DNA of 64,000 nt from Ralstonia pickettii DTP0602 (GTDB taxonomy: Bacteria > Pseudomonadota > Gammaproteobacteria > Burkholderiales > Burkholderiaceae). The notes beneath the pieces are model-generated. The model ran no database searches. It was not told the DNA's origin and worked only from the letters and a program-made list of their open reading frames with translations. Where the stretch lies: the NCBI GenBank assembly GCA_000471925.1, contig CP006667.1:868001-932000 (forward strand), given 5' to 3'. Numbering within the stretch: the first letter of the stretch is position 1; every line of letters starts with the position of its first letter. Made by a program: the position numbers and the translations under genes. Of this stretch, positions 38,549 to 53,664 are shown piece after piece.

Positions 38549-39949
38549 CTAATCCAGCGCGCGGTTCCTCGACTCGATATCCACCATGAAAATGGCGATC
38601 GCCGCCAGGGCAAGAAATGACGAAAGGAGCGCAAGGGCAAGTGTGAACTGGGTAGCCATGATCGGGGCAATGATCGAAGGTGCGAAGAGGCCACCGAAGC
38701 GCGCCATCGCACCCGCAGTGCCCATTCCGCTGGCCCGCAGATCCGTCGGATACACCTCAGGCGTAAAGGCGTAAAGTGCTCCCCACGTACCGAGGAGCGC
38801 AAAGCTCATCAGCAAGGTGGAGCCGACGACGAGCGCAGTGGACTGGCCCAGGCTATAGAGCATGCAACCTGCCGCGCTGAGAAGCAGGAAGCCGATCAGG
38901 GTCGGTTTCCGACCCCAACGCTCGACGCCGTGAGCGGCGAGCGCGAAGCCGGGAAGCTGCACGAGCGCGAGCAGGATCAGGAACACTTGACCACGCATGA
39001 AGCCAAAGCCCTGGCCAGCCAGCTTCACCGGGAGATAAACGAAGACGCCGTAGTAGGCGATCGAGATGAGCATCCAGGCGGCAAGCAGGCAGATGCTGCG
39101 GCGTCGGCATCCGGCCGCGAAGAGCGCAAAAACCGATTTGCGCTCCATCGGCTGCGGCTCCAGGGAGCCAATTTCCACGGAAACGCGATTGGCGGCGGCT
39201 ACACGCTGAAGCACGGCGCGTGCCTCTGCTGAGCGTCCCGCTTTATTCAGATAGAGCGGAGACTCGGGAACAAAGAACCGGAAGATCACGCCGACCAGGG
39301 CGGGGATGCCAGTGACGAGGAAGATCAGCCGCCAGGCGTCATCGCCTTGCGAAACGGCAACCAGGGCAAGAACGGCGAGCAAGATCGTGCCGACGGCCCA
39401 GAATGACTCCAGCAGGACCAGCCAGCGACCGCGCCGGTCGGAGGGCAGAAACTCGGCCATCATGGTGTAGTCAACGGGCAAAGTGCCGCCGACGCCGATG
39501 CCGGTCAGGAAGCGCAGCAACAGAAGCCACTGGAAGTCCGGTGCGAAGGCGGACGCGACACCACAGATCGCGTCGATGACCACCGCCATCATGAGCACGG
39601 GTCGGCGGCCGATCCTGTCCGCAAGCCGACCGAACACGAAAGCGCCAATCAGCATGCCGACAAAGAACATCGTACCGGTCTGCAAAGCCGTCGGTACGGG
39701 GATGCCAAATGTCGCAGCAATGGACGGCGCGGTGAAGCCGATCGAGAGCACCTGCATCGCGTCAGCGAGCCAGACCAGGCCGAATATGACAAAGAGCCGA
39801 TACTGGAATCGACCGACACCGGCCGCGCGGATGCCTTGCTCGATAGTGATGGTCTGAGGCGTCCCTACCCTCGCGCTTGGCTGGGGGGGCGAGCTTATCG
39901 TTGCTTCTGGGATTGTCGTTGTTGCCATTGATGAGATTGATGACGACAT
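38549..39949 (-). CDS. MFS transporter, NiaP-like (probable nicotinate importer)
   Basis: The 466-residue protein has twelve membrane spans with MFS motifs GRLADRIGRRPVLMM (loop 2-3) and RWGRKPTLIGF, plus ESPLYLNKAGR and a C-terminal WGALYAFTPEVYPTDLRASGMGTAGAMARFGG segment typical of the SV2/NiaP and sugar-porter-related group. NiaP proteins import nicotinate. The nicotinate catabolic genes start 0.6 kb away, which supports that substrate; aromatic-acid or other organic-acid transport remains possible. Codon third positions are less GC-biased than in its neighbours, hinting at separate origin. A start a few codons further in is possible. Confidence 0.75.
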   Translation of the reverse strand: MSSSISSMATTTIPEATISSPPQPSARVGTPQTITIEQGIRAAGVGRFQYRLFVIFGLVWLADAMQVLSIGFTAPSIAATFGIPVPTALQTGTMFFVGMLIGAFVFGRLADRIGRRPVLMMAVVIDAICGVASAFAPDFQWLLLLRFLTGIGVGGTLPVDYTMMAEFLPSDRRGRWLVLLESFWAVGTILLAVLALVAVSQGDDAWRLIFLVTGIPALVGVIFRFFVPESPLYLNKAGRSAEARAVLQRVAAANRVSVEIGSLEPQPMERKSVFALFAAGCRRRSICLLAAWMLISIAYYGVFVYLPVKLAGQGFGFMRGQVFLILLALVQLPGFALAAHGVERWGRKPTLIGFLLLSAAGCMLYSLGQSTALVVGSTLLMSFALLGTWGALYAFTPEVYPTDLRASGMGTAGAMARFGGLFAPSIIAPIMATQFTLALALLSSFLALAAIAIFMVDIESRNRALD

Positions 39950-40566: not shown

Positions 40567-43497
40567 TTAATGGGCAGGCGTCGCGCGCAGGCGCGCGACG
40601 GTGTTCTCCAGGTCCTGCCAGGCGGGTTGGTCGGGGGCAAAGCGAGCGCGCAGGTACTGCGCCAGTTGCGCGATCTGCCGGTCGTCGAGCGTGTCGGCGT
40701 AGGCCGGCATCGCGCCCAGCTCACTGTTGGGCGGTGCCGGCATGCCTTGCAGCAGCACCTGGATGACGTTGTCGGGCAGCTTGCTGTGCAGGTTGGTGTT
40801 GAGTGCGAGCGATGGCTTGACGCCGAACTGCGCGATACCCTGGTCTGACTGGTGGCAGACCGCGCACGCGCTCTGGTACAGGCGTTCGCCGGGACCGTTC
40901 AGGGTGAGCGCGGCCTGCGCGCTGCGCTGCTCGATTCGCGCTGCCTGCGCGGCCAGCACCGAAGGCGCTGGCGGCGGCGTGCCGAACGAGGCCACGTAGT
41001 GCGCGATTGCGCGCACGTCGGATTCTGGCAACTGCGCGAGTTCTTCCACCACCGGCGCCATTGGTCCAGCCGCGGCGCCATGATGCGGCGCATACCCGCC
41101 GCGCAGATACGTGAACAGTGCCGCTTCGGTCCACGGCACCGGTGCGTGCGAGAGCGAGGTCAGCGGCGCTGCTTCCCAGCCTTCGGCACTGCCGCCGGTC
41201 AGGTACTTGCGCCCGCCCTGTTCCGCGCCGAGCGCGTTGCGCGGCGAATGGCAGGCACTGCAGTGGCCCAGGCCTTCGGCGAGATACGCTCCGCGGTTCC
41301 ATTGCGCAGAGCGCGAGGGGTCGGGCTTGAATGGTTCGTTGCGATGGAACAGCAGGTTCCAGCCCGCCAGCAGTGGCCGCATGTTGAACGGGAAAGCGAG
41401 CTGGGTTTGCGGGACCTCGGACTTCACCGGCTCGGCGGCCATCAGGTAGGCATACAGCGCCTGCATGTCGGCATCGCTGACCTTGGCGAACGCGGTGTAG
41501 GGGAAGGCCGGGTAGAGGCGCCGCCCGTCGCGGTGGATGCCTTCGCGCATCGCGCGCTCGAACGCCGCGAACGACCAGTTGCCGATGCCGGTCTGCACAT
41601 CGGGCGTGATGTTGGTGCTGTACACCGTGCCGAACGGCGTTTCCAGCGGCAGGCCGCCGGCATTCTTCACGCCGCCGGGCGCCGTATGGCACACCGCGCA
41701 GTCGCCTGCTGCGGCCACCAGGCGGCCCCGCTCCAGCGTGGCTGCGGAGTAAAAACCGGGTTCGGGCGGTGCGACCGGCGCGATCGGCGCACGCCACGGC
41801 AATAGCGTCGCGCACAGGCCGGCTGCGGTGGCGGCAGCGGCTGCAAGCCAGCCGCGTTTCTTGCGCCGGCTGCCGCGCTTGTCTTCACTCTCGGCAAGTG
41901 CCAGGCGGATGCGTTCGGCGCTGAAAGGCGGTGCGCGCAGGCGCACGCCGGTGGCATCGAAGATGGCGTTGGCGACTGCCGCTGCGGCGGGCAGCGTATC
42001 GGCCGGCCCCGCGGCGAGCTTGTCGTACCCGGTGAGCGTGCCGGCCAGGCGCACTTCCGGCAGTGCGTTGCCGGCCATCGCAGGCAGCGTCTGGGTCGTG
42101 GGTGCAGCGGATGGCCAGGTGTCGAAGGCAGGCGTGGCGGCTGTCAGTTGCAGTGCGGTGTCGGCGACTGCCTGTTCAAGCGAGCGCGTGGCGGGTACGG
42201 CTTGCGTGGGCGCCAGCGATTCGCTGTCGCGGCCCACGGTCACGCGCGTGACTGCCAGGTCGCCGGTGGTGCCGTCGACTTCCACTTCCGCCACCCACGC
42301 CGACCAGCTCTGGCCGGCATCGTGGTCGACGGTATGCGCATAAGCGAAGCCGCGGCCGCGCCGCACGTTGCCGGCCGCTGCGGCGGCACGCGGCGCGGCC
42401 GGCGTCCAGCCCGCGCGCTCGCTTACCTGCCATACCAGGGCCACGCCGCGCGCGTCGTCGAGATGCGCGAGCCGCAGCGCGATCGGATCGCTGCCTGATG
42501 CGGCGGCGATTTCGTCGAGATGGGATTCGCGCGCAAAGACCTGCGCGCGGGCGGCGGCAAGCGGTGCGGCGTCGAACGCGGCGATGTCGCCGACCGTGCC
42601 GACATCGACATTGGGAATGCGGTAGGGCGGAATGCCGGCGTTGCTTGCGTGGGCCGTGTCGGTGCCGTCCGTCACTGGCGACGGCGTATGCGTCAGCCAA
42701 AGCGCCAGCGGCACCGACGGCGCGGCGGTGCCGGCGAGCGTGGAAGCGTAGGCATCGATCGCATCGCTGGCGCGTGCGGTGTCGACGCGCACGGCCAGTA
42801 CTGCGTCGGATAAGCCGATGTCGTCGGCGCACAGCCGGCGCATCACCGGCTTGCCGGCGGCATGGGCAAGCAATGCGGCGTCGGCAGCGGCGTGGTGCGC
42901 CAGCAGCGCCGGGTCGGCGCCATCGTCCGGCGCTTGCCAGCAGGCCAGCGCCACCTGCTGCGGCGCGATCCCCAGCAGCGCGGCCAGTTCCTCGCGCAAC
43001 GCGCCCGGGCGCGTTGCGGGCAGCCACACATACAGCATGCCATCGCGCCAGTCGGCGATGACGGTGCAGTGGGCCTGGGCACGGGTGCCGGCCAGCGGCC
43101 ACTGGTAGTCCTGCGCATGGCGCGTCGCGGCGTTGGCCAGCACGTCGCCGGCGTCGCCGCGTTGCGTAATCGCGCGACGCGGGACGGGTGCGCCGTCAGC
43201 GCGCGGCGGTGCCGACCAGCGCGCCTGCAAGGCATGTGCGGCATTGGCCGCCAGCGCATCGGTCTCCGCGACAACGCCAGCAAACTGGTTGCGGAGCACC
43301 ACGGCGCGCACGCCCGGCAAGGCCAGTGCCGCGTCGCGGTCAGCACTCAGCAGGCGCGGCGACAGCGGCTTGCCATCGAGCCAGCGCAGGCCGGGCGGCG
43401 TCAGCACATGGGCGACGAGGCAGATCGCGGCCGGCGGCGGCGCAAGGTCCGCCACAACGCTGGCAGGCCCGGGCTGCGGTACGAGTCTTTGCGTCAC
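40567..43497 (-). CDS. Nicotinate hydroxylase subunit: Mo-hydroxylase-like domain fused to three c-type cytochrome domains
   Basis: The 976-residue protein corresponds to the C-terminal half of NicB-type subunits. Residues 1 to about 535 resemble the molybdenum subunit of isoquinoline/nicotinate oxidoreductases. However, where the catalytic partner at 49811 has GAGES (E716), this protein has AAGPA, so the catalytic glutamate is replaced by proline. A membrane helix (about 549-568) follows, then three haem sites CAVCH (600), CSACH (746) and CAVCH (878). It probably carries electrons from the 2Fe-2S subunit to the respiratory chain while docking the enzyme to the membrane. The GTG start overlaps the stop of the 2Fe-2S gene (GTGA); longer frames are rejected. 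Confidence 0.85.
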   Translation of the reverse strand: MTQRLVPQPGPASVVADLAPPPAAICLVAHVLTPPGLRWLDGKPLSPRLLSADRDAALALPGVRAVVLRNQFAGVVAETDALAANAAHALQARWSAPPRADGAPVPRRAITQRGDAGDVLANAATRHAQDYQWPLAGTRAQAHCTVIADWRDGMLYVWLPATRPGALREELAALLGIAPQQVALACWQAPDDGADPALLAHHAAADAALLAHAAGKPVMRRLCADDIGLSDAVLAVRVDTARASDAIDAYASTLAGTAAPSVPLALWLTHTPSPVTDGTDTAHASNAGIPPYRIPNVDVGTVGDIAAFDAAPLAAARAQVFARESHLDEIAAASGSDPIALRLAHLDDARGVALVWQVSERAGWTPAAPRAAAAAGNVRRGRGFAYAHTVDHDAGQSWSAWVAEVEVDGTTGDLAVTRVTVGRDSESLAPTQAVPATRSLEQAVADTALQLTAATPAFDTWPSAAPTTQTLPAMAGNALPEVRLAGTLTGYDKLAAGPADTLPAAAAVANAIFDATGVRLRAPPFSAERIRLALAESEDKRGSRRKKRGWLAAAAATAAGLCATLLPWRAPIAPVAPPEPGFYSAATLERGRLVAAAGDCAVCHTAPGGVKNAGGLPLETPFGTVYSTNITPDVQTGIGNWSFAAFERAMREGIHRDGRRLYPAFPYTAFAKVSDADMQALYAYLMAAEPVKSEVPQTQLAFPFNMRPLLAGWNLLFHRNEPFKPDPSRSAQWNRGAYLAEGLGHCSACHSPRNALGAEQGGRKYLTGGSAEGWEAAPLTSLSHAPVPWTEAALFTYLRGGYAPHHGAAAGPMAPVVEELAQLPESDVRAIAHYVASFGTPPPAPSVLAAQAARIEQRSAQAALTLNGPGERLYQSACAVCHQSDQGIAQFGVKPSLALNTNLHSKLPDNVIQVLLQGMPAPPNSELGAMPAYADTLDDRQIAQLAQYLRARFAPDQPAWQDLENTVARLRATPAH

Positions 43498-43991
43498 GAT
43501 GCCGCTCCCTCGGCGGCCTGGCGCTGCAGCACCGCGGCGCGCTGTACCGCGCGCACGATTTCCACATGCGTGCCGCAACGGCACAGGTTGAAGCGCAGTG
43601 CCTCGCGGATCTGCGCCTCGTCGGGATCGGGGTTCTGCGCGAGCAGCGCCTTCGCGGTCATGATCATGCCGTTCAGGCAGTAGCCGCATTGCGCGGCCTG
43701 CTCGTCGATAAAGGCCTGCTGGACCGGGTCGGGCTGTGTCGCCGTGCCCAGTCCTTCCAGCGTGGTGACGGCGTGGCCGACCACCGCCCTGACCGGCAGA
43801 ACGCACGAGCGCGCGGCCATACCGTCCACCAGCACCGTGCAGGCGCCGCATTGTCCCAGGCCGCAGCCATACTTGGGGCCGTTGCAGGCCAGGTCGTTGC
43901 GCAGGATGTAGAGCAGCGGCGTGTCAGGCGCCACGCTCAGCGTGTGCTCGGCGTGGTTGACCTGCAGCGTCAGGGGGCGGGGCGCGTTCAT
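43494..43991 (-). CDS. nicA: Nicotinate hydroxylase 2Fe-2S subunit
   Basis: The 165-residue protein has both 2Fe-2S sites of the xanthine-dehydrogenase small-subunit family: C43, C48, C51 and C63 (plant-ferredoxin type) and C102, C105, C137 and C139 (CGYC and CRC motifs). It passes electrons from the molybdenum centre to the haem subunit encoded directly downstream, whose start overlaps this stop codon. Its position 121 bp behind nicC on the same strand suggests nicC-nicA-haem subunit is one operon. The name nicA rests on cluster context. Confidence 0.9.
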   Translation of the reverse strand: MNAPRPLTLQVNHAEHTLSVAPDTPLLYILRNDLACNGPKYGCGLGQCGACTVLVDGMAARSCVLPVRAVVGHAVTTLEGLGTATQPDPVQQAFIDEQAAQCGYCLNGMIMTAKALLAQNPDPDEAQIREALRFNLCRCGTHVEIVRAVQRAAVLQRQAAEGAAS

Positions 43992-44112
43992 CGTGGGCTG
44001 GGGGCGGTTTGCACATCACGCATCGCGGCGCCGCGCCCCTTCGTCGGCGAGGGGCTGCGGCGGCATATTGCCTGCCGGCATGCTGTGCCGGCAGGCCAGG
44101 GTCAGGCAGGCA

Positions 44113-45359
<1,247 letters not shown>

Positions 45360-45536
45360 AAAATATCAACGTAAAGGAAGAAAATATCGAACCTATGGAA
45401 AACCCTTATGTAAACATAATTGATCACGCACAACGCCATTTATCGGTGAATTTATGCGCAAAAACAGGGATTGGTTAATTAAGTATGCACTGAACGAGTG
45501 AATCGTGCCCCGCGCAGATTCTGTTTGCCTATATAA

Positions 45537-45548
45537 AGTGTGTACACT
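45537..45548 (-). promoter_or_regulatory. Operator 2, within the nicE promoter
   Basis: AGTGTACACACT on the minus strand (plus AGTGTGTACACT) lies between the -35 TTGCCT and -10 TACAAT of nicE, where bound repressor would block polymerase. Confidence 0.65.
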
Positions 45549-45609
45549 ACAATCGATCGCAGCATGCAGGGGCCGGCAGGCCAGCGCAGGCGGGTAGACA
45601 GACAAACCA

Positions 45610-46377
45610 ATGACGGAGTCGACAGTGCAGAAAGTTTTCCGAATCGGCCAGATCGTGCCGAGCTCCAACACCACGATGGAAACCGAGATCCCGGCGATGC
45701 TGGCCGCGCGCCAGTTGGTGCGCCCTGAACGCTTCACCTTCCATTCCAGCCGGATGCGGATGAAGAAGGTGGTCAAGGAGGAACTGGCGGCGATGGACGC
45801 CGAATCCGACCGCTGCGCGGTGGAGCTGAGCGACGCCCGCGTCGACGTGCTCGGCTACGCCTGCCTGGTGGCGATCATGGCGATGGGCCACGGCTACCAC
45901 CGCGTGTCCGAGCAGCGCCTGCAGGCGCATACCGCCGAGAACGGCGGCGACGCGCCGGTGATCACCAGCGCCGGCGCGCTGGTGGATGCGCTCAAGGTGA
46001 TGGGCGCCAAGCGCATCGCGGTGGTGGCGCCCTACATGAAGCCGCTGACCGAGCTGGTGGTCGACTACATCCGCAATGAAGGCTACGAGGTAGTGGACTA
46101 CCGCGCGCTGGAGATCCCCGACAACCTCGACGTGGGCCGCCACGACCCGTCGCGGCTGCCGGACATCGTCGCGCAGATGAATACCGCCGACGCCGATGTC
46201 ATCGTGCTGTCGGCCTGCGTGCAGATGCCGTCGCTGCCGGCGGTGGCCAAGGTTGAGGCGATGACTGGCAAGCCGGTGGTCACCGCCGCTATCGCCACGA
46301 CTTACGCGCTACTCAAACGCCTCGGCCTGGAGCCGGTAGTGCCGGGCGCGGGCGCGCTGCTGTCGGGCGCTTACTGA
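45610..46377 (+). CDS. nicE: Maleate cis-trans isomerase
   Basis: The 255-residue Asp/Glu-racemase-fold enzyme starts MTESTVQKVFRIGQIVPSSN. Its two catalytic cysteines are visible as C85 (GYACLVAIM) and C203 (LSACVQMPS), three residues later than in P. putida NicE. It isomerises maleate to fumarate without cofactor, the last step of the nicotinate route. It is first in nicE-nicD-nicX-nicF, divergent from nicC; nicD starts 11 bp after its stop. Confidence 0.95.
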   Translation: MTESTVQKVFRIGQIVPSSNTTMETEIPAMLAARQLVRPERFTFHSSRMRMKKVVKEELAAMDAESDRCAVELSDARVDVLGYACLVAIMAMGHGYHRVSEQRLQAHTAENGGDAPVITSAGALVDALKVMGAKRIAVVAPYMKPLTELVVDYIRNEGYEVVDYRALEIPDNLDVGRHDPSRLPDIVAQMNTADADVIVLSACVQMPSLPAVAKVEAMTGKPVVTAAIATTYALLKRLGLEPVVPGAGALLSGAY

Positions 46378-46388
46378 AGGAGCCGGCC

Positions 46389-47219
46389 ATGACGACCAGC
46401 ACCTTCCTCTATGGCGCCAACGTCCACGCCAACGGCATCCGCCAGCACTACCTGCGGTACGGCGGGCAGGATGGCGCGCGCGCGCAGCGCGATGCCATCG
46501 TGATCGTGCCGGGCATCACCAGCCCGGCGGTGACGTGGGGCTTTGTCGGCGAGCAGTTCGGGCGGCAGTTCGATACCTATGTGCTCGACGTGCGCGGCCG
46601 CGGCCTGTCGCAGGCCGGGCCGGAGCTGGACTACAGCCTGGACGCGCAAGCTGCCGACGTGGTCGCCTTTGCCGAAGCTCTCGGGCTGCAGCGCTATGCC
46701 ATCGTCGGCCATTCGATGGGCGCTCGCATCGGCATCCGCGCCGCGCGCGGCAAGCCCGCCGGGCTGACGCGGCTGGTGCTGGTCGATCCGCCGGTGTCGG
46801 GCCCGGGGCGCCGTCCGTATCCGTCGCAACTGCCCTGGTACGTCGATTCGATCCGGCTGGCGCAGCAGGGCATCGACGTCCAAGGCATGCGCCGCTTCTG
46901 CCCGACCTGGACCGAAGCACAGCTGCGCCTGCGCGCGCAGTGGCTGCACACCTGCGACGAGCGCGCGATCCTGGCCAGCTTCAACGGCTTCCATGAGGAC
47001 GATATCCACGCCGACCTGCCACACGTGTCGGTGCCGGCGCTGCTGATGACCGCCGGCCGCGGCGATGTGATCCGCGCGGAAGACGCGCAAGAAATGCGCA
47101 CGCTGCTGCCCGCACTGCTGGTCGCGCATGTCGCCAATGCCGGCCACATGATCCCGTGGGACGACGAGGCCGGCTTTTACCGCGCGTTCGGCGACTTCCT
47201 CGGCGAGGCGCTGAACTGA
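46389..47219 (+). CDS. nicD: N-formylmaleamate deformylase
   Basis: This 276-residue alpha/beta hydrolase has the nucleophile S109 in GHSMGAR, D133 and H253 (NAGHMIPWD). Each is exactly eight positions beyond the S101/D125/H245 triad of P. putida NicD. It splits N-formylmaleamate to maleamate and formate. GAAGGAGCCGGCC before the ATG is a good ribosome site. It lies between nicE and nicX (13-bp gap). Confidence 0.94.
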   Translation: MTTSTFLYGANVHANGIRQHYLRYGGQDGARAQRDAIVIVPGITSPAVTWGFVGEQFGRQFDTYVLDVRGRGLSQAGPELDYSLDAQAADVVAFAEALGLQRYAIVGHSMGARIGIRAARGKPAGLTRLVLVDPPVSGPGRRPYPSQLPWYVDSIRLAQQGIDVQGMRRFCPTWTEAQLRLRAQWLHTCDERAILASFNGFHEDDIHADLPHVSVPALLMTAGRGDVIRAEDAQEMRTLLPALLVAHVANAGHMIPWDDEAGFYRAFGDFLGEALN

Positions 47220-47232
47220 ACAAGGAGCGAAC

Positions 47233-48312
47233 ATGCCTGTAAGCGATTACGACCTGACCGCGGCGTGGAAGCAGGTGCTGACGCTGTCGAAGCTGCAAGC
47301 AGGGCAGACCGTCACCGTGCTGACCGGCGCCGCCACGCACCCGCAGACGCTGCGCACGGCGATGGTGGCGGCGGCATCGATGGGCGCCATCGTCAACCGG
47401 CTCGACCTGCCGCCGGTCAACGGCGAGAAGGCGCTCAGCCGCGACGCGCTGGCTTACCTCGGCACCACGCCACTGACCGGCAACCCGGCCGCCATCGCCG
47501 CGCTGAAGGCGAGCGACCTGGTGCTGGATCTGATGACGCTGCTGTTCTCGCCAGAGCAGCACGAGATCCTGTCGCAAGGGACCAAGATCCTGCTGGCGGT
47601 GGAGCCGCCCGAAGTGCTGGCGCGGCTGGTGCCGACCGAGGCCGACCGCACCCGCGTCAAGGCCGCCACCGCGCGGCTGGCGAAGGCGCGCGAGATGCAT
47701 ATCGTGTCCGACGCCGGCATGGACCTGCGCTGCCGCCTCGGCGAGTTCCCCGCGATCAGCGAGTACGGCTTTGTCGACGAGCCCGGCCGCTGGGACCACT
47801 GGCCGAGCGGCTTCGTGCTGACCTGGCCGGACGAGGGCGGCACCAACGGCACCATCGTGCTGGACCGCGGCGACATCCTGCTGCCGATGAAGTCCTACCT
47901 GCAGGCGCCGATCCGCATCACGGTCGAGGCGGGCTATGTGCGCCGCATCGAAGGCGGCGTGGATGCCGAGCTGCTGGCGGACTACATGGCCTCGTTCAAC
48001 GACCCCGAAGCCTATGCGATGTCGCATATCGGCTGGGGGCTGCAGCCGCGCGCGAGCTGGTCGGCGCTGGCGATGTATGACCGCGAGGCCACCATCGGCA
48101 TGGACGCGCGCGCCTACGAGGGCAACTTCCTGTGCTCGTTCGGCCCCAACAATGAAGCGGGCGGCAGCCGCACCACCGCCTGCCATATCGATATCCCGGT
48201 GCGCCACTGCACCGTCAGCCTCGACGGCGAGCCGGTGGTGGTGCGCGGCAAGGTGATGGACGGCCACCAAGCCCCCGCCGCCTCGCTCTACAAGGAAATG
48301 CGCCATGAATGA
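47233..48312 (+). CDS. nicX: 2,5-dihydroxypyridine 5,6-dioxygenase
   Basis: The 359-residue iron(II) extradiol-type dioxygenase has metal ligands H265 (SHIGWG) and H318/D320 (CHIDIP), the same numbers as reported for P. putida NicX. It opens the ring of 2,5-dihydroxypyridine to N-formylmaleamate. AAGGAGCGAAC precedes the ATG. Its 3' end overlaps nicF by 8 bp, implying coupled translation. Confidence 0.95.
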   Translation: MPVSDYDLTAAWKQVLTLSKLQAGQTVTVLTGAATHPQTLRTAMVAAASMGAIVNRLDLPPVNGEKALSRDALAYLGTTPLTGNPAAIAALKASDLVLDLMTLLFSPEQHEILSQGTKILLAVEPPEVLARLVPTEADRTRVKAATARLAKAREMHIVSDAGMDLRCRLGEFPAISEYGFVDEPGRWDHWPSGFVLTWPDEGGTNGTIVLDRGDILLPMKSYLQAPIRITVEAGYVRRIEGGVDAELLADYMASFNDPEAYAMSHIGWGLQPRASWSALAMYDREATIGMDARAYEGNFLCSFGPNNEAGGSRTTACHIDIPVRHCTVSLDGEPVVVRGKVMDGHQAPAASLYKEMRHE

Positions 48313-48946
48313 CGCAGTGCAGACTTACCAGCGCCAGGGCTTTGGCGCGTCGATGGAGCTCCGGGCGCCGTACGGCCTCTTGATCATCGACTTCGTCAAC
48401 GGCTTTGCCGATCCGGCGGTGTTCGGCGGCGGCAATATCCCCGAAGCGATCCGCAATACGCAGCCGCTGCTGCGCACGGCGCGCGAGCAGGGCTGGCCGG
48501 TGGCGCACAGCCGCATCGTGTTTGCCGACGACGACAGCGACCACAATATCTTCACGCTGAAGGTACCGGGCATGCTGACGCTGAAGGAGCACGGCCACAA
48601 CAGCGCGATCGTGCCGGAGCTGGCACCCGCGCCGGGCGAACTGGTGGTGCGCAAGACGGTGCCGTCGGCGTTCTTCGGCACCTCGCTGGCGGCGTGGCTG
48701 ACGCAGCGCGGCGTGCAGACCCTGCTGGTGGCGGGTTGCGTCACCAGCGGCTGCGTGCGCGCCAGCGTGGTGGATGCGATGTCGCTGGGCTTCCGCCCGC
48801 TGGTGGTGTCGGATTGTGTGGGCGACCGGGCGTTGGGCCCGCACGAGGCCAACCTGTTCGACATGGCGCAGAAGTACGCCACCGTGCTCACCCGCGACAA
48901 CGCGCTGGCGCAGATCGCGGGCGCTGGCGCCCGGGCCGCCGCCTGA
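48305..48946 (+). CDS. nicF: Maleamate amidohydrolase
   Basis: The 213-residue isochorismatase-like cysteine hydrolase has D29 (LIIDFVNGF), K117 (VRKTVPSAF) and C150 (VTSGCVRASV), identical in position to the catalytic triad of P. putida NicF. It converts maleamate to maleate and ammonia. It is the last gene of the operon; the convergent TetR gene ends 26 bp further on, with no clear terminator. Confidence 0.95.
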   Translation: MNDAVQTYQRQGFGASMELRAPYGLLIIDFVNGFADPAVFGGGNIPEAIRNTQPLLRTAREQGWPVAHSRIVFADDDSDHNIFTLKVPGMLTLKEHGHNSAIVPELAPAPGELVVRKTVPSAFFGTSLAAWLTQRGVQTLLVAGCVTSGCVRASVVDAMSLGFRPLVVSDCVGDRALGPHEANLFDMAQKYATVLTRDNALAQIAGAGARAAA

Positions 48947-48972
48947 GGATGGAGATGCGGCCGGGCCCGGCT

Positions 48973-49728
48973 TCAGCCTGCCGCCGCCCGTTTGGCGCGA
49001 GCCGCCTTGCGCGGCGCCGCCGGCGGCGCCAGGCCTGTGTCAGGCACTGCACCGGGCGCGGTCACCGCGCGCAGCACCGTCTGCTGGATCACATCGCGCC
49101 AGTGCGCCAGCGCGGGCGGGCTCATCATGGGCTCGCCCAAAAAGGCGCTGAGCGTATGATGGTTGGAATTGTAGAAGTAGCCGAGCGAAGCGATCACCAT
49201 ATAGACGTCGCGCGCGCCCACGTCCGGCCGGAACAGCCCCGCGGCTTTGCCGCGCGTGAGGATGCCGTCGAGCACCGACAGCGCGTAGCTGGAGATCTCC
49301 CTGAGCCGCACGGACTTCTTCGCATGCTTGCCCTGGCTCATGTTCTCGCTGGACAGGATCGCGACGAATTCCGGGTGGTCGAGGTAGTACTGCCAGATGA
49401 AGTCGATCAGTTGCGACAGCGCGCGCACCGGGTCGGCGGCGTCGAGTTCGTGTTCAAGCTTCTGCTCGGCTTCGTTGAGCTGCAGGTAGATGGTCTCGAG
49501 CACTTCGACGAACAGCTTTTCCTTGCTGCCGAAGTAGTAGTAGATCATCCGGTCGTAGGTCTTGGCCAGCGACGAGATGCGTTCGATGCGGCCGCCGTCG
49601 TAGCCGCGTTGCGCGAAAACCTTGATCGCAGCCCTGAGGATGCGGTCGCGGCTGTCCTGCGCCTGCCTGGCCCGCGTGCCGGCTGCCGCCCGCTTTGTCG
49701 TAGCTTTGGTCGCGGTCGTGATCGTCAT
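48973..49728 (-). CDS. TetR/AcrR-family transcriptional regulator
   Basis: The 251-residue regulator has a TetR DNA-binding domain (about residues 25-75: RDRILRAAIKVFAQRGYDGGRIERISSLAKTYDRMIYYYFGSKEKL) and an all-helical C-terminal domain of the RutR-like type. Both ends carry basic Ala/Lys/Thr tails (MTITTATKATTKRAAAGTRA; APRKAARAKRAAAG). It is divergent from the catalytic hydroxylase gene (82-bp gap), so control of that gene is likely. The ligand is unknown. Confidence 0.9.
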   Translation of the reverse strand: MTITTATKATTKRAAAGTRARQAQDSRDRILRAAIKVFAQRGYDGGRIERISSLAKTYDRMIYYYFGSKEKLFVEVLETIYLQLNEAEQKLEHELDAADPVRALSQLIDFIWQYYLDHPEFVAILSSENMSQGKHAKKSVRLREISSYALSVLDGILTRGKAAGLFRPDVGARDVYMVIASLGYFYNSNHHTLSAFLGEPMMSPPALAHWRDVIQQTVLRAVTAPGAVPDTGLAPPAAPRKAARAKRAAAG

Positions 49729-49810
49729 GGTGGATGGTTAAGCTGTGCCCCTGTTGGCTCGCAGTATAACGGCGCCCCCGGGCGAGGCCGCTGAAGGAGT
49801 CTGGAAAATA

Positions 49811-52078
49811 ATGACGGCAACGAACCTGCAACCCTCGGCACACGCCGATCCCGCCACGCCGCGCGTGCTGCGGCTGGCGCTGCTGCAGGCCACTGGCGTG
49901 CTGCTGGTCACGCGCGCCCCACAGGCAGCAACGCGCCCCGCGCCCGGCCAGCCGGGCGCGGCCTCTGACTATGTGGCGGCGCTGCCGGATATCTTCATCG
50001 CCGTGCGCGACAGCGGCGAGGTGCTGGCCTTCAACGGCCACGTCGACCTGGGAACAGGCATCCGCACGGCGCTGGCGCAGATCGTGGCCGAGGAACTCGA
50101 CGTGCGGATGGAGCGCGTGCACATGGTGCTCGGCCATACCGAAGCCACGCCCAACCAGGGCCCCACCATCGCCAGCGCCTCGATCCAGATCTCGGCCCTG
50201 CCGCTGCGCCGCGCAGCCGCGCAGGCGCGTGCGTGGCTGCAGGCGCGCGCGGCGCGGCAGCTCGGCGTTGACGCTGGAAAGTTGGAGGCGGAGGACGGCC
50301 TATTCCGGGTCTCGGGCACGCAGGCCAACATCGGCTACGGCGCGCTGGTTTCCGGCGAGCATGTGGAGTTGCCGCTGGCCGATGACGTGCCGACCAAGCC
50401 GGTAGAGGCCTACCGCATCGTCGGCCGCCCGGCGGGCCGCGTCGATATCCCCGACAAGGCGCGCGGCGTGCTGAGCTTCGTCCACGACGTGCGCGTGCCC
50501 GGCATGTTGCACGGCCGCGTGGTACGCCCACCGTACGCGGGACGCGACTGCGGCGAATTCATCGGCAACAGCTTGCTGGAAGTGGATCGCGCTTCCGTGC
50601 GCGATGTGCCGGGCCTGGTCGACGTGGTGGTGCAGGGCGACTTCGTCGGCGTGGTGGCCGAGCGCGAGGAGTACGCCGTGCAGGCCGCGCGCCGGCTGCG
50701 CGTGCGCTGGAGGCCGGTACCTCCGCTGCCGGCGCTCGACGACCCCGAGCCCGCCTTGCGCGCCAATCCGGCCACGCGGCGCGAGCTGCTGGCCGACGGC
50801 GAAATGCCGGCAACCGGCAAGGTATTGCAGCGCCAGTACGTCTGGCCCTTCCAGATGCACGGTTCGATCGGTCCTTCATGCGCGGTGGCCGACTGGCACG
50901 ACGATGGCCTGACCGTCTGGTCCGGCACGCAGAACCCGCATGTGCTTCGCATCGACCTGGCAAAGCTGTGCGGGCTCGGCGAAGACCGCATCGAGATCGT
51001 GCGCATGGAAGCCGCCGGCTGCTACGGCCGCAACTGCGCCGACGATGTCTGCGCCGATGCCGCGCTGTTGTCGCGCGCGGTCGGGCGGCCGGTGCGCGTG
51101 CAGTTGTCGCGCGAACAGGAGCATCTGTGGGAGCCCAAGGGCGCGGCGCAGCTAATGGACGTCAGCGCGACGCTGGGGCAGGACGGTGCGCTGCTCGGCT
51201 ACGACTTCACCAGCCGCTATCCGTCCAACGATGCGCCGACGCTGGCGCTGGTGCTGACCGGTGCCGTGCCCAATGCGCCGCGCATGCTGGAGATGGGAGA
51301 TCGCACCGCCGTGCCGCCGTATGCGTATGCCGCGCGGCGCATCGGTTGCGATGACACGCCGGCGATCGTACGCGCATCGTGGCTGCGCGGCGTGTCGGCA
51401 TTGCCAAACGTGTTTGCGCATGAGTGCGTGATCGATGAACTGGCTGCGGAGGCAGGTGATGATCCGGTGGATTTCAGGCTGCGCCACCTGCCAGATACGC
51501 GTGCGGCCGACCTGCTGCTTGCCACCGCCGATGCCGCGGGCTGGCAGCGCGGCGCGCAAGGCTCGCGCGGCATGCCGGGTGCCGATGGTTGCCTGCGCGG
51601 CCGCGGTGTGGCCTACGCCCGCTATATCCACAGCCGCTTCCCGGGCTTCGGCGCGGCGTGGGCGGCCTGGGTGGTCGACCTGGCGGTGGATGCCGCCACC
51701 GGCCGCATCACGATCGGGAAGGTCGTGGTGGGACAAGACACCGGCATGATGGTCAATCCCGACGGCGTGCGCCACCAGATCCACGGCAACGTGGTGCAGA
51801 CACTGAGCCGCGTGCTGAAGGAGCAGGTGCGTTTCGACGCTGACGGCGTTGCCAGCCGTGAATGGGGCAGCTATCCGCTGCTGACCTTCCCGGAGATTCC
51901 GCCGATCGAGGTGGTGCTGATGCCGCGGCAGTCAGAGCCGCCGATGGGGGCAGGGGAGTCGGCATCGCTGCCGGGTGCACCGGCGATCGCCAATGCCTTG
52001 TTCGATGCGATGGGAGTGCGGCTGCGCCGGCCGCCGTTCGTGCCGGAGACCGTCCTGGCCGCGCTGCAGGCGCGCTGA
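49811..52078 (+). CDS. Nicotinate hydroxylase molybdenum (catalytic) subunit
   Basis: The 755-residue protein is a Mo-cofactor subunit of the isoquinoline/nicotinate oxidoreductase type: GHVDLGTGIRTALAQIVAEEL (about residues 77-97), the loop AAGCYGRNCADDVCAD, and the catalytic glutamate E716 in MGAGESASLPG. It matches the N-terminal two-thirds of P. putida NicB but ends before any cytochrome domain. It therefore needs the separate tri-haem protein at 40567-43497 and the 2Fe-2S protein at 43494-43991. AAGGAG lies 11 nt before the ATG at 49811; the frame upstream to 49745 is unsupported. Confidence 0.88.
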   Translation: MTATNLQPSAHADPATPRVLRLALLQATGVLLVTRAPQAATRPAPGQPGAASDYVAALPDIFIAVRDSGEVLAFNGHVDLGTGIRTALAQIVAEELDVRMERVHMVLGHTEATPNQGPTIASASIQISALPLRRAAAQARAWLQARAARQLGVDAGKLEAEDGLFRVSGTQANIGYGALVSGEHVELPLADDVPTKPVEAYRIVGRPAGRVDIPDKARGVLSFVHDVRVPGMLHGRVVRPPYAGRDCGEFIGNSLLEVDRASVRDVPGLVDVVVQGDFVGVVAEREEYAVQAARRLRVRWRPVPPLPALDDPEPALRANPATRRELLADGEMPATGKVLQRQYVWPFQMHGSIGPSCAVADWHDDGLTVWSGTQNPHVLRIDLAKLCGLGEDRIEIVRMEAAGCYGRNCADDVCADAALLSRAVGRPVRVQLSREQEHLWEPKGAAQLMDVSATLGQDGALLGYDFTSRYPSNDAPTLALVLTGAVPNAPRMLEMGDRTAVPPYAYAARRIGCDDTPAIVRASWLRGVSALPNVFAHECVIDELAAEAGDDPVDFRLRHLPDTRAADLLLATADAAGWQRGAQGSRGMPGADGCLRGRGVAYARYIHSRFPGFGAAWAAWVVDLAVDAATGRITIGKVVVGQDTGMMVNPDGVRHQIHGNVVQTLSRVLKEQVRFDADGVASREWGSYPLLTFPEIPPIEVVLMPRQSEPPMGAGESASLPGAPAIANALFDAMGVRLRRPPFVPETVLAALQAR

Positions 52079-52108: not shown

Positions 52109-52585
52109 TCAGGCGCTGCCGTTGCCCTCGTCGATCTCGCTCATCTTCCGCAGCAGGTAAGTCACCGCCACACGCTCAGCCGGATTGAGACTGCCAAACG
52201 TCTGCTCCGAAATCTGCTTCGCAAACGGCACGGTCTCGTCGATCAAGGCCAGCCCCGCCGGCGTCACCGTCACCACCACCTTGCGCCGGTCATTGGGGTC
52301 GTGCGACACGGCAATCAGCTTGCGCGCCTTCAGCCGCTCGATGATGCCGCGCACCGTAGCCTGGTCGATCGCCGTAGCCCGCACCACCTCGTTCATCGAA
52401 CACGGCTGCCGGTCCCTGACCGCGCACAGCACCACGAACTGCGCCGCAGTGAGCTGCGAGTCCGGGATGGTCTGCTGGAAGATCGCCACATGGCGCTGGT
52501 ACGCGCGCCGCAACAGGTGGCCTACCTGCTCGGTGAAGTCGTAGTCGTTGGCGGTCTTGTCGGACGGGTTGGAGGACTGGGGCAC
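52109..52585 (-). CDS. MarR-family regulator (NicR/BpsR-like)
   Basis: The 158-residue winged-helix regulator (LLRRAYQRHVAIFQQTIPDSQLTAAQFVVLCAV.. DRQPCSMNEVVRATAIDQATVRGIIERLKARKLIAV) resembles NicR of Pseudomonas and BpsR of Bordetella. Those repress nicotinate catabolic genes and respond to 6-hydroxynicotinate. It is the best candidate for the twin operators between nicC and nicE. GTG at 52585 is the likely start; earlier codons to 52882 overlap the binding-protein gene antisense-like and look non-coding. No clear ribosome site, so the start is uncertain. Confidence 0.85.
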   Translation of the reverse strand: MPQSSNPSDKTANDYDFTEQVGHLLRRAYQRHVAIFQQTIPDSQLTAAQFVVLCAVRDRQPCSMNEVVRATAIDQATVRGIIERLKARKLIAVSHDPNDRRKVVVTVTPAGLALIDETVPFAKQISEQTFGSLNPAERVAVTYLLRKMSEIDEGNGSA

Positions 52586-52618
52586 GTCGATGGTGATGCG
52601 GTGGATGAGCGTGCCCCG

Positions 52619-52624
52619 AGTATA
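52619..52624 (-). promoter_or_regulatory. -10 element of the marR-type gene
   Basis: TATACT on the minus strand lies 34 bp before the GTG start; the -35 is weak. Confidence 0.35.
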
Positions 52625-52659
52625 CCGATCCGGGAGAATAGCGAGAGCACCAAACGGGC

Positions 52660-53664
52660 TTATTCGACCGTGATGCCCGCGGTCTTCGCGACCTTGCCGA
52701 AGCGCTCGTATTCCGACTGCGTCAGCGACTGCAATTCGGCCGCGCTGGAGCCCTTCGGATTGAAGCCCGCCTGCGCCAGCTTCTCGCGCACGTCGGGGCG
52801 CGCCAGGGCCTCGACGAAGGCGGCGTTGAGCGCCTGCACCACCGGCGCCGGCAGATTGGCCGGACCATAGACGCCGAACCACGGCTCGACCGCATAACCC
52901 TGCAGGCCCGCCTCGGCCAGCGTCGGCACGTCCGGCAGCGACGGCGCGCGTTGCCTGCCCGCCACCGCCAGCGCGCGCAGCTTGCCGGCCTGGATATGCG
53001 GCAGCGACGCCGGCAGGTTGTCGAACATCACCGTGATATGGCCGCCGAGCATGTCGTTAATGGCCGGGCTGCTGCCCTTGTACGGCGCGTGCGTCAGGCT
53101 GGTCTGCGTCATCTGCGCGAACATCGCGCCGGCCAGGTGCATCGAAGTGCCGGTGCCGGCGGTCGCATAGGTCAGGCCTGGATTGGCCTTGGCGTAGGCC
53201 ACCAGCTCCTTCACGTTCTTCACCGGCAGCGAGGGGCTCACTTCCAGCACGATGGTCGAGGTGCCGAGCAGGCTGATCGCGGTGAAGTCCTTGCGCGGGT
53301 CGAAGGGCACCTGCTTGTAGATATGCGGATTCAGCGCATTGGTCGAGATCGCGCCGAAGCCGATGGTGTAGCCGTCCGGCGCGGCCTTGGCCACGGCGTC
53401 CATGCCGATATTGCCGCCGGCGCCGGGGCGGTTCTCGATCACCACCGGCTGGCCCAGCTTCTCGCCCACGCGCTGGCCGACGGTGCGTGCCACCAGGTCG
53501 GTGGTGCCGCCGGCGGCGTACGGGACGACAAAGCGGATCGGCTTGGAGGGGAAGGCGTCGCCGGGGGCAGCCGTGGCGTTGAAGCTGCCGGCAAGGACAA
53601 CCGCGCCGACCATTGCGGCGAGCAGGAAGGGGCGGCGGCCGGGGCGTGCGGGACAGGTCGTCAT
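52660..53664 (-). CDS. Bug-family (TTT-type) periplasmic solute-binding protein
   Basis: The 334-residue protein has a signal peptide (PARPGRRPFLLAAMVGAVVL.. cleaved near ATAA) and the Bug fold: PSKPIRFVVPYAAGGTTDLVAR, VIENRPGAGGNIGMDAVAKA, YATAGTGTSMHLAG and PAINDMLGGHITVMFDNL. Bug proteins capture organic acids in the periplasm; no TctA/TctB membrane partners are in the window, as is common for the expanded Bug set in this group. Position beside the MarR-like gene suggests a pyridine or dicarboxylate ligand, but this is only contextual. Confidence 0.92.
   Translation of the reverse strand: MTTCPARPGRRPFLLAAMVGAVVLAGSFNATAAPGDAFPSKPIRFVVPYAAGGTTDLVARTVGQRVGEKLGQPVVIENRPGAGGNIGMDAVAKAAPDGYTIGFGAISTNALNPHIYKQVPFDPRKDFTAISLLGTSTIVLEVSPSLPVKNVKELVAYAKANPGLTYATAGTGTSMHLAGAMFAQMTQTSLTHAPYKGSSPAINDMLGGHITVMFDNLPASLPHIQAGKLRALAVAGRQRAPSLPDVPTLAEAGLQGYAVEPWFGVYGPANLPAPVVQALNAAFVEALARPDVREKLAQAGFNPKGSSAAELQSLTQSEYERFGKVAKTAGITVE

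Follow-up and report, generated by a model that had tools for sequence, protein, structure and literature searches.

A presumed three-chain nicotinate hydroxylase with one complete molybdenum subunit and a second, degenerate molybdenum domain fused to its tri-haem cytochrome

The window analysed here is a stretch of 64,000 nucleotides from contig CP006667.1 of Ralstonia pickettii DTP0602, a genome of 8.1 Mb on three contigs whose closest named relatives are Cupriavidus. It carries a Cupriavidus-type nic cluster in which the molybdenum (Mo) subunit of the nicotinate hydroxylase, the first enzyme in the degradation of vitamin B3 by this soil bacterium, is present twice: NicB1 has all motifs of the family, while NicB2 has degenerated and carries a tri-haem cytochrome c on the same chain, as had been claimed in an earlier prediction made from the sequence of this window (hereafter the original prediction). 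In this enzyme family hydroxylation takes place at Mo and the electrons leave through two [2Fe-2S] centres. We propose a three-chain nicotinate 6-hydroxylase of NicA, NicB1 and NicB2, in which NicB1 would hold the sole working Mo site and hydroxylate nicotinate, presumably at C6. Electrons would pass from Mo to the two [2Fe-2S] centres of NicA and on to the tri-haem part of NicB2, from where they may enter the respiratory chain. Both Mo proteins would descend from a duplicated single-chain NicB (Mo domain, helix and cytochrome), of which NicB1 lost the cytochrome and NicB2 the Mo-site loops as well as the Mo fold's N-terminal third. The dead domain may have been kept as a surface on which the membrane-bound cytochrome docks to NicA and/or NicB1. 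Taken as a whole we consider this explanation probable; the assembly of the three chains into one complex and the order of electron transfer are inferred.

Residues 1-540 of NicB2 are homologous to residues 233-752 of NicB1, i.e. to about its last 520 residues, with 30% identity in an alignment of 539 columns (E 3e-34 for the two sequences compared on their own). This is well beyond chance and agrees with the homology predicted for the C-terminal Mo stretch. NicB1 matches both MoCoBD_1 and MoCoBD_2 in Pfam and contains, as expected of a protein that retains the Mo-hydroxylase motifs, the sequence GAGES, whose Glu716 we take to be the catalytic residue by its role in the family. In NicB2 the match to MoCoBD_1 stays below threshold (24.9 versus 27 bits), Cytochrom_C and Cytochrome_CBB3 are matched in addition, and GPADT with Pro498 is aligned to GAGES. 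The glutamate is kept in 54 of 54 aligned NicB1 and 27 of 27 fused (single-chain) NicB, and in none of 45 NicB2, where its place is taken by G (18), P (13), A (6), a gap (4), D (2), R (1) or S (1). The original prediction of a change from glutamate to proline therefore holds for the NicB2 of the window, and the absence of Glu for all NicB2, but proline is just one of several residues found there; judged from the alignment, this is a degenerate position and no specific Glu-to-Pro change.

The degeneration is concentrated in the active-site loops. We compared 225 positions within residues 233-752 that are kept in at least 95% of 81 active sequences; counting as kept what is present in at least 80% of the 45 NicB2 sequences, NicB2 keeps 54 of them, and 111 are present in fewer than 20%. 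None of the 29 conserved positions in loops 396-412, 521-534 and 711-719 (NicB1 numbering) is kept, loops which we take from xanthine-oxidase-family structures to be the Gly/aromatic, RG and Glu loops; 9 of 11 are kept after the Glu in 720-752, and 8 of 12 in 535-560. Also lacking, in line with the prediction, are the N-terminal 200 or so residues of the fold. They are not encoded upstream of nicB2 in the window, since the GTG start of nicB2 at 43497 overlaps the nicA stop by four bases (GTGA) and leaves no room. NicB2 is predicted to have the overall fold of a Mo subunit but has neither the catalytic Glu of GxGE nor the pterin- and Mo-binding loops, and its catalysis has, to judge from these losses, been abandoned.

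The pairing of the two proteins extends far beyond the window. GTDB genome contigs were scanned with a NicB1 alignment, and the best 80 of at least 581 confirmed stretches were used as loci: 27 with single-chain NicB (frames of 1205-1431 codons; 25 Paraburkholderia, two labelled Burkholderia), 47 with NicB1 and NicB2, and six with NicB1 alone, five of which are cut by contig ends 0.2-5.8 kb upstream of NicB1. Where enough DNA is available upstream, NicB2 accompanies NicB1 in 47 of 48 loci. The pairs bear 16 genus labels, including Bordetella, Achromobacter, Delftia, Acidovorax, Comamonas, Azoarcus, Herbaspirillum and Caballeronia. The two-part NicB that the original prediction had named as a possible precedent in Bordetella was found there (L115, L133, L140, P0085) and is in print (PMC10269826; this paper, PMC4572682, PMC7688666 and PMC10331938 are cited here from excerpts of their text), and Achromobacter, another genus in which it had recommended a search for the same split, shares the layout, as do Delftia and others. 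NicB2 is complete in 44 pairs (15 genus labels) and cut by the locus end in the other three. In all 44 the dead domain and the cytochrome share one frame, which leaves a pseudogene or frameshift of nicB2 unsupported; frames come from an open-frame search that would miss a broken copy, a limit that applies to a single locus (L127, see below). In the same 44 pairs nicB2 is divergent from nicB1, the open frames lying 3.7-6.6 kb apart in 41 and 135-726 bases apart in three. The latter three loci, from Eoetvoesiella (L146), Pusillimonas (L168) and Corticibacter (L153), have a compact nicB2-nicA with nicB1 diverging from it; no further nic genes were detected in the first two, and relatives of nicC, nicT, nicE and nicD follow nicB1 in the third. 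In an order-level sample of 399 genomes, all seven that show a NicB2-type match show one of NicB1 type on that contig as well, types being judged by match pattern and frame length among the best two to three candidates scored per genome, and in a 60-genome sample the pairing was 21 of 21, our own genome included. Plasmid records yielded distant relatives only (82 records, all below 60% identity). A protein of 1117 residues (P0118), considered as an intermediate between the fused and the paired form, is rather a NicB2 with insertions and has the same degenerate motif.

The membrane helix and the three CxxCH sites ascribed to NicB2 are present in it and in its relatives. All 27 fused NicB and all 44 complete NicB2 have a hydrophobic stretch of 19 residues (mean hydropathy 1.2-2.1) within the 75 residues before the first haem, with Lys and Arg richer on its N-terminal side. 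This basic flank of a helix that precedes the first CxxCH suggests that the Mo and FeS parts lie inside and the haems outside the membrane. A twin-arginine translocation (Tat) signal was rejected as a conserved feature, as only 5 of 53 NicB1 and 3 of 27 fused frames show the loose motif RRx[FGAVML][LITMVFK] on the N-terminal side of the Mo domain, in a motif search with no predictor run. NdhA of the nicotine dehydrogenase NdhAB carries such a signal (PMC7688666). An arrangement with Mo inside and haems outside, and no Tat signal, would make the electron path across the membrane a puzzle.

Both proteins fall within the fused-NicB family in our trees, which argues for duplication with complementary loss instead of simple splitting. 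The simplest history would be that a single-chain NicB was duplicated and that one copy dropped its cytochrome and the other its Mo site. In a Mo-domain tree of 47 rows, calculated with the outgroup row L002 left out, NicB2 forms one clade (100/100) and NicB1 another (99/99), and NicB1 stands beside the fused NicB of Paraburkholderia (89/91). Larger and differently rooted sets agree on that position, with a support of 98 in the Shimodaira-Hasegawa-like approximate likelihood ratio test (SH-aLRT). The NicB2 cytochromes also form one clade (96/87), with a mean identity of 55% to fused NicB versus 48% to nine stand-alone cytochromes. Counting the genes that were sought, nicB2 is the neighbour of nicA in 47 of 47 pair loci, a position held by the single-chain gene in all 27 fused loci, so that nicB2 appears to occupy the ancestral place. 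Tree distances of NicB1 and NicB2 correlate with r 0.81 over 22 loci, a value reached in none of 2000 permutations.

The main argument for docking, as we see it, is that no complete pair lacks the dead domain, two segments of which are under tight constraint. Ratios of nonsynonymous to synonymous substitution (dN/dS; Nei-Gojobori medians of 16 Cupriavidus-type sequences, over pairs with dS 0.05-1.2 that are not independent of each other) are similar for NicB1 (0.15) and the NicB2 cytochrome (0.14) and higher for the dead domain (0.32). Within this domain, segments 316-425 (0.17) and 499-536 (0.15) are as constrained as NicB1, and segment 27-220 has a ratio of 0.31. Most of the domain is predicted as a confident fold. 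A docking role, which corresponds to the scaffold of the original prediction, is likely on these indirect grounds of constant presence, purifying selection, kept segments and modelled fold. The stronger statement, that NicB2 is a true pseudoenzyme subunit whose dead Mo domain arose by duplication and complementary loss and is an obligate assembly or docking partner of NicB1 or NicA, we put forward tentatively, at somewhat less than even chances.

Several observations weigh against the proposed explanation. Parts of the dead domain are constrained like a working enzyme and other parts drift: segments 221-315 and 426-498 are relaxed (dN/dS 0.48 and 0.46), parts of residues 428-495 are modelled with a predicted local distance difference test score (pLDDT) below 50, and the Mo part of NicB2 evolves about 4.8 times faster than NicB1. 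Relatives with a bare cytochrome, namely the operons L178 and L179 and the aldehyde dehydrogenase 8gy3 discussed below, indicate that such an enzyme can in principle do without a docking domain. With respect to the origin, the Mo branch of NicB2 is long and its closest fused relative is not fixed by the trees. A single clade of NicB1 and NicB2 is not rejected by the approximately unbiased (AU) test (p-AU 0.336; 35 rows, simpler model), so that the two as sole sisters are neither backed nor ruled out. The congruence of the NicB1 and NicB2 trees would also be expected from plain joint inheritance. In another cytochrome tree, which includes L178 and L179, support for the NicB2 clade is just 77 and the bare cytochromes of these two operons group among the fused ones; the descent of the NicB2 cytochrome consequently leans more on its linkage to a NicB-type Mo domain. 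Finally, L127, a metagenome-assembled genome of Paracidovorax wautersii, has NicB1 but no NicB2 in the 9.9 kb upstream, and a tblastn search of it with NicB2 gave matches only within its NicB1. Scores for nicX and nicF are weak in this locus, and nicA and nicC were not detected; L132, of the same species label, holds the full pair, and L127 is likely an assembly problem.

Alternatively, the dead domain could be a passive leftover, which folds merely so that helix and cytochrome get made while the cytochrome works alone. The 4.8-fold faster evolution, the relaxed segments and the bare cytochromes of L178, L179 and 8gy3_A are what such a leftover would lead us to expect, but each of the 44 complete pairs, across their 15 genus labels, has the domain and the cytochrome in one open frame, most of the domain has a confidently predicted fold, and the dN/dS of its kept segments is on the level of NicB1. 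A free linker, moreover, should have shrunk in some lineage, and in none of the 44 did it do so. We regard a leftover as rather unlikely. Distinctly less likely is a site in NicB2 that still binds cofactor or substrate, for example to regulate or to sense nicotinate: 54 of 225 conserved positions are kept, but these lie elsewhere than in the active-site loops, where none of 29 survives, and the N-terminal, pterin-side part is absent. A simple fission of NicB, with the Mo half at the N-terminus becoming NicB1 and the cytochrome half at the C-terminus becoming NicB2, is implied by the database name NicB.N given to the NicB1 of Cupriavidus necator H850 (P0133) as one half of NicB and by the term tripartite used in print (PMC10269826). 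It is hardly credible and is ruled out by the overlapping homology, because NicB1 comprises the whole Mo subunit as far as the C-terminal helix and residues 233-752 are present in NicB2 as a further copy, which requires a second copy of the gene. Duplication followed by complementary loss, with a dead domain retained for docking, remains the explanation that we favour.

The cluster reads from left to right nicT-like(-), nicB2(-), nicA(-), nicC(-), nicE/nicD/nicX/nicF(+), TetR(-), nicB1(+) and MarR(-) (Table 1). Both hydroxylase genes have the extents given in the original prediction, with 40567-43497 on the minus strand, and lie at opposite ends of the cluster as it had stated. The PDB matches of nicC, nicE and nicX firmly assign the cluster to the nicotinate pathway. 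A TetR gene is divergent from nicB1 in 18 of 18 Cupriavidus-type loci and in 22 of the 27 fused loci a TetR relative diverges from nicA-nicB, which hints that nicB1 retained the old regulator.

Table 1. Genes of the nic cluster and elements of NicB1 and NicB2, in positions of the window (MFS, major facilitator superfamily; aa, amino acids)
Feature	Position	Strand	Basis
nicT-like MFS transporter	38549..39949	-	domain type
nicB2, 976 aa, pseudo-Mo domain, membrane helix and tri-haem cytochrome c	40567..43497	-	sequence, Pfam, homology, predicted fold
Haem site 3, CxxCH, NicB2 residues 878-882	40852..40866	-	sequence
Haem site 2, CxxCH, NicB2 residues 746-750	41248..41262	-	sequence
Haem site 1, CxxCH, NicB2 residues 600-604	41686..41700	-	sequence
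Hydrophobic helix, NicB2 residues 549-568, basic residues before	41794..41853	-	sequence; hydropathy of relatives
Pseudo-Mo domain, NicB2 residues 1-540, Mo-site loops degenerate	41878..43497	-	homology to NicB1 233-752
Pro498 codon of NicB2, at place of NicB1 E716	42004..42006	-	alignment
nicA, [2Fe-2S] subunit, 165 aa	43494..43991	-	Fer2, Fer2_2; best PDB match 8gy3_B
nicC, 6-hydroxynicotinate 3-monooxygenase	44113..45357	-	5eow, E 1e-165
nicE, maleate cis-trans isomerase	45610..46377	+	4fq7, E 1.3e-112
nicD candidate, alpha/beta hydrolase (N-formylmaleamate deformylase by position)	46389..47219	+	domain type, cluster context
nicX, 2,5-dihydroxypyridine dioxygenase	47233..48312	+	7cn3, E 8.6e-122
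nicF candidate, isochorismatase-type amidohydrolase	48305..48946	+	domain type; role from cluster context
TetR-family regulator, divergent from nicB1, NicS-like by position	48973..49728	-	domain type
nicB1, complete Mo subunit, 755 aa, presumed catalytic	49811..52078	+	sequence, Pfam
Glu716 codon of NicB1 (GAGES), presumed catalytic	51956..51958	+	sequence, alignment; role from the family
MarR-family regulator, NicR/BpsR-like by position; longest open reading frame, real start probably later	52109..52882	-	domain type

The list of parts is already known, whereas the presence of a dead domain, the way it arose and the extent to which it is conserved appear to be new within the literature searched. 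No mention of a dead Mo domain in NicB2 was found there, including the excerpts of PMC10269826, PMC4572682, PMC7688666 and PMC10331938; Jimenez 2008 and Brickman and Armstrong 2018 may describe it. The pair provides a natural case of a duplicated and divided enzyme, in which one copy would serve catalysis and the other would be an electron wire with a dead catalytic domain, and the annotation as a split NicB is corrected. Should the obligate partnership hold, the enzyme would combine a living and a dead Mo subunit in one hetero-oligomer, and a pseudoenzyme scaffold would exist among the molybdenum hydroxylases. Single-chain, bare-cytochrome and dead-domain forms coexist among close relatives, which offers a clean genetic comparison for pseudoenzyme domains in redox complexes.

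NicB of Pseudomonas putida is a single chain, and the fused NicB relatives found by us measure about 1100-1218 residues. The enzyme of the window resembles the NicAB of P. putida in its NicA with two [2Fe-2S] domains (Fer2 and Fer2_2 both above the Pfam cut-off), its complete Mo subunit with Glu, its three c-type haem sites and its nic cluster, in which the maleamate-pathway genes are present (nicC, nicE and nicX by PDB matches, nicD and nicF by domain and position). It differs in that Mo and haems are located on two chains instead of one, and in the second, dead Mo domain of the haem chain. The P. putida enzyme is described as two-component NicA/NicB, and a tripartite NicA/NicB1/NicB2 is named for Burkholderia gladioli and Bordetella (PMC10269826). 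The same tripartite set, in the gene order of our cluster, is given for Delftia acidovorans (PMC4572682), and our Delftia loci L121 and L123 contain the same pair. These systems share the gene set with the window, but the excerpts of both papers mention neither a dead Mo domain nor its origin.

The membrane-bound aldehyde dehydrogenase of Gluconobacter oxydans (8gy3) is the best sequence match of all three parts (chain A cytochrome, B FeS, C Mo). It acts on another substrate, and its cytochrome chain of 444 residues has no Mo-like domain, whereas NicB2 has a pseudo-Mo domain of about 540 residues. Near relatives are the three-gene operons L178 (genome G168) and L179 (G128), with separate FeS, Mo and tri-haem cytochrome genes, an aligned GAGES and Mo proteins 54% and 52% identical to NicB1; their cytochrome is plain and their genes are contiguous. 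G168 carries both such a bare-cytochrome operon and a NicB1/NicB2 pair. Two genomes of the same genus as the window (L180 in G024, L181 in G010) have a further cytochrome-FeS-Mo cluster. A weak nicC relative lies near it, its bare tri-haem cytochrome shares about 52% identity with that of NicB2, and its Mo protein is more distant, with GVAE instead of GAGE in L181. A 2023 review describes a three-gene nicotinate dehydrogenase of FeS, Mo and a third subunit of 46 kD, which it calls a flavoprotein (its reference 29; Comamonas, as we read it) (PMC10331938). The size of this third subunit would fit a bare tri-haem cytochrome.

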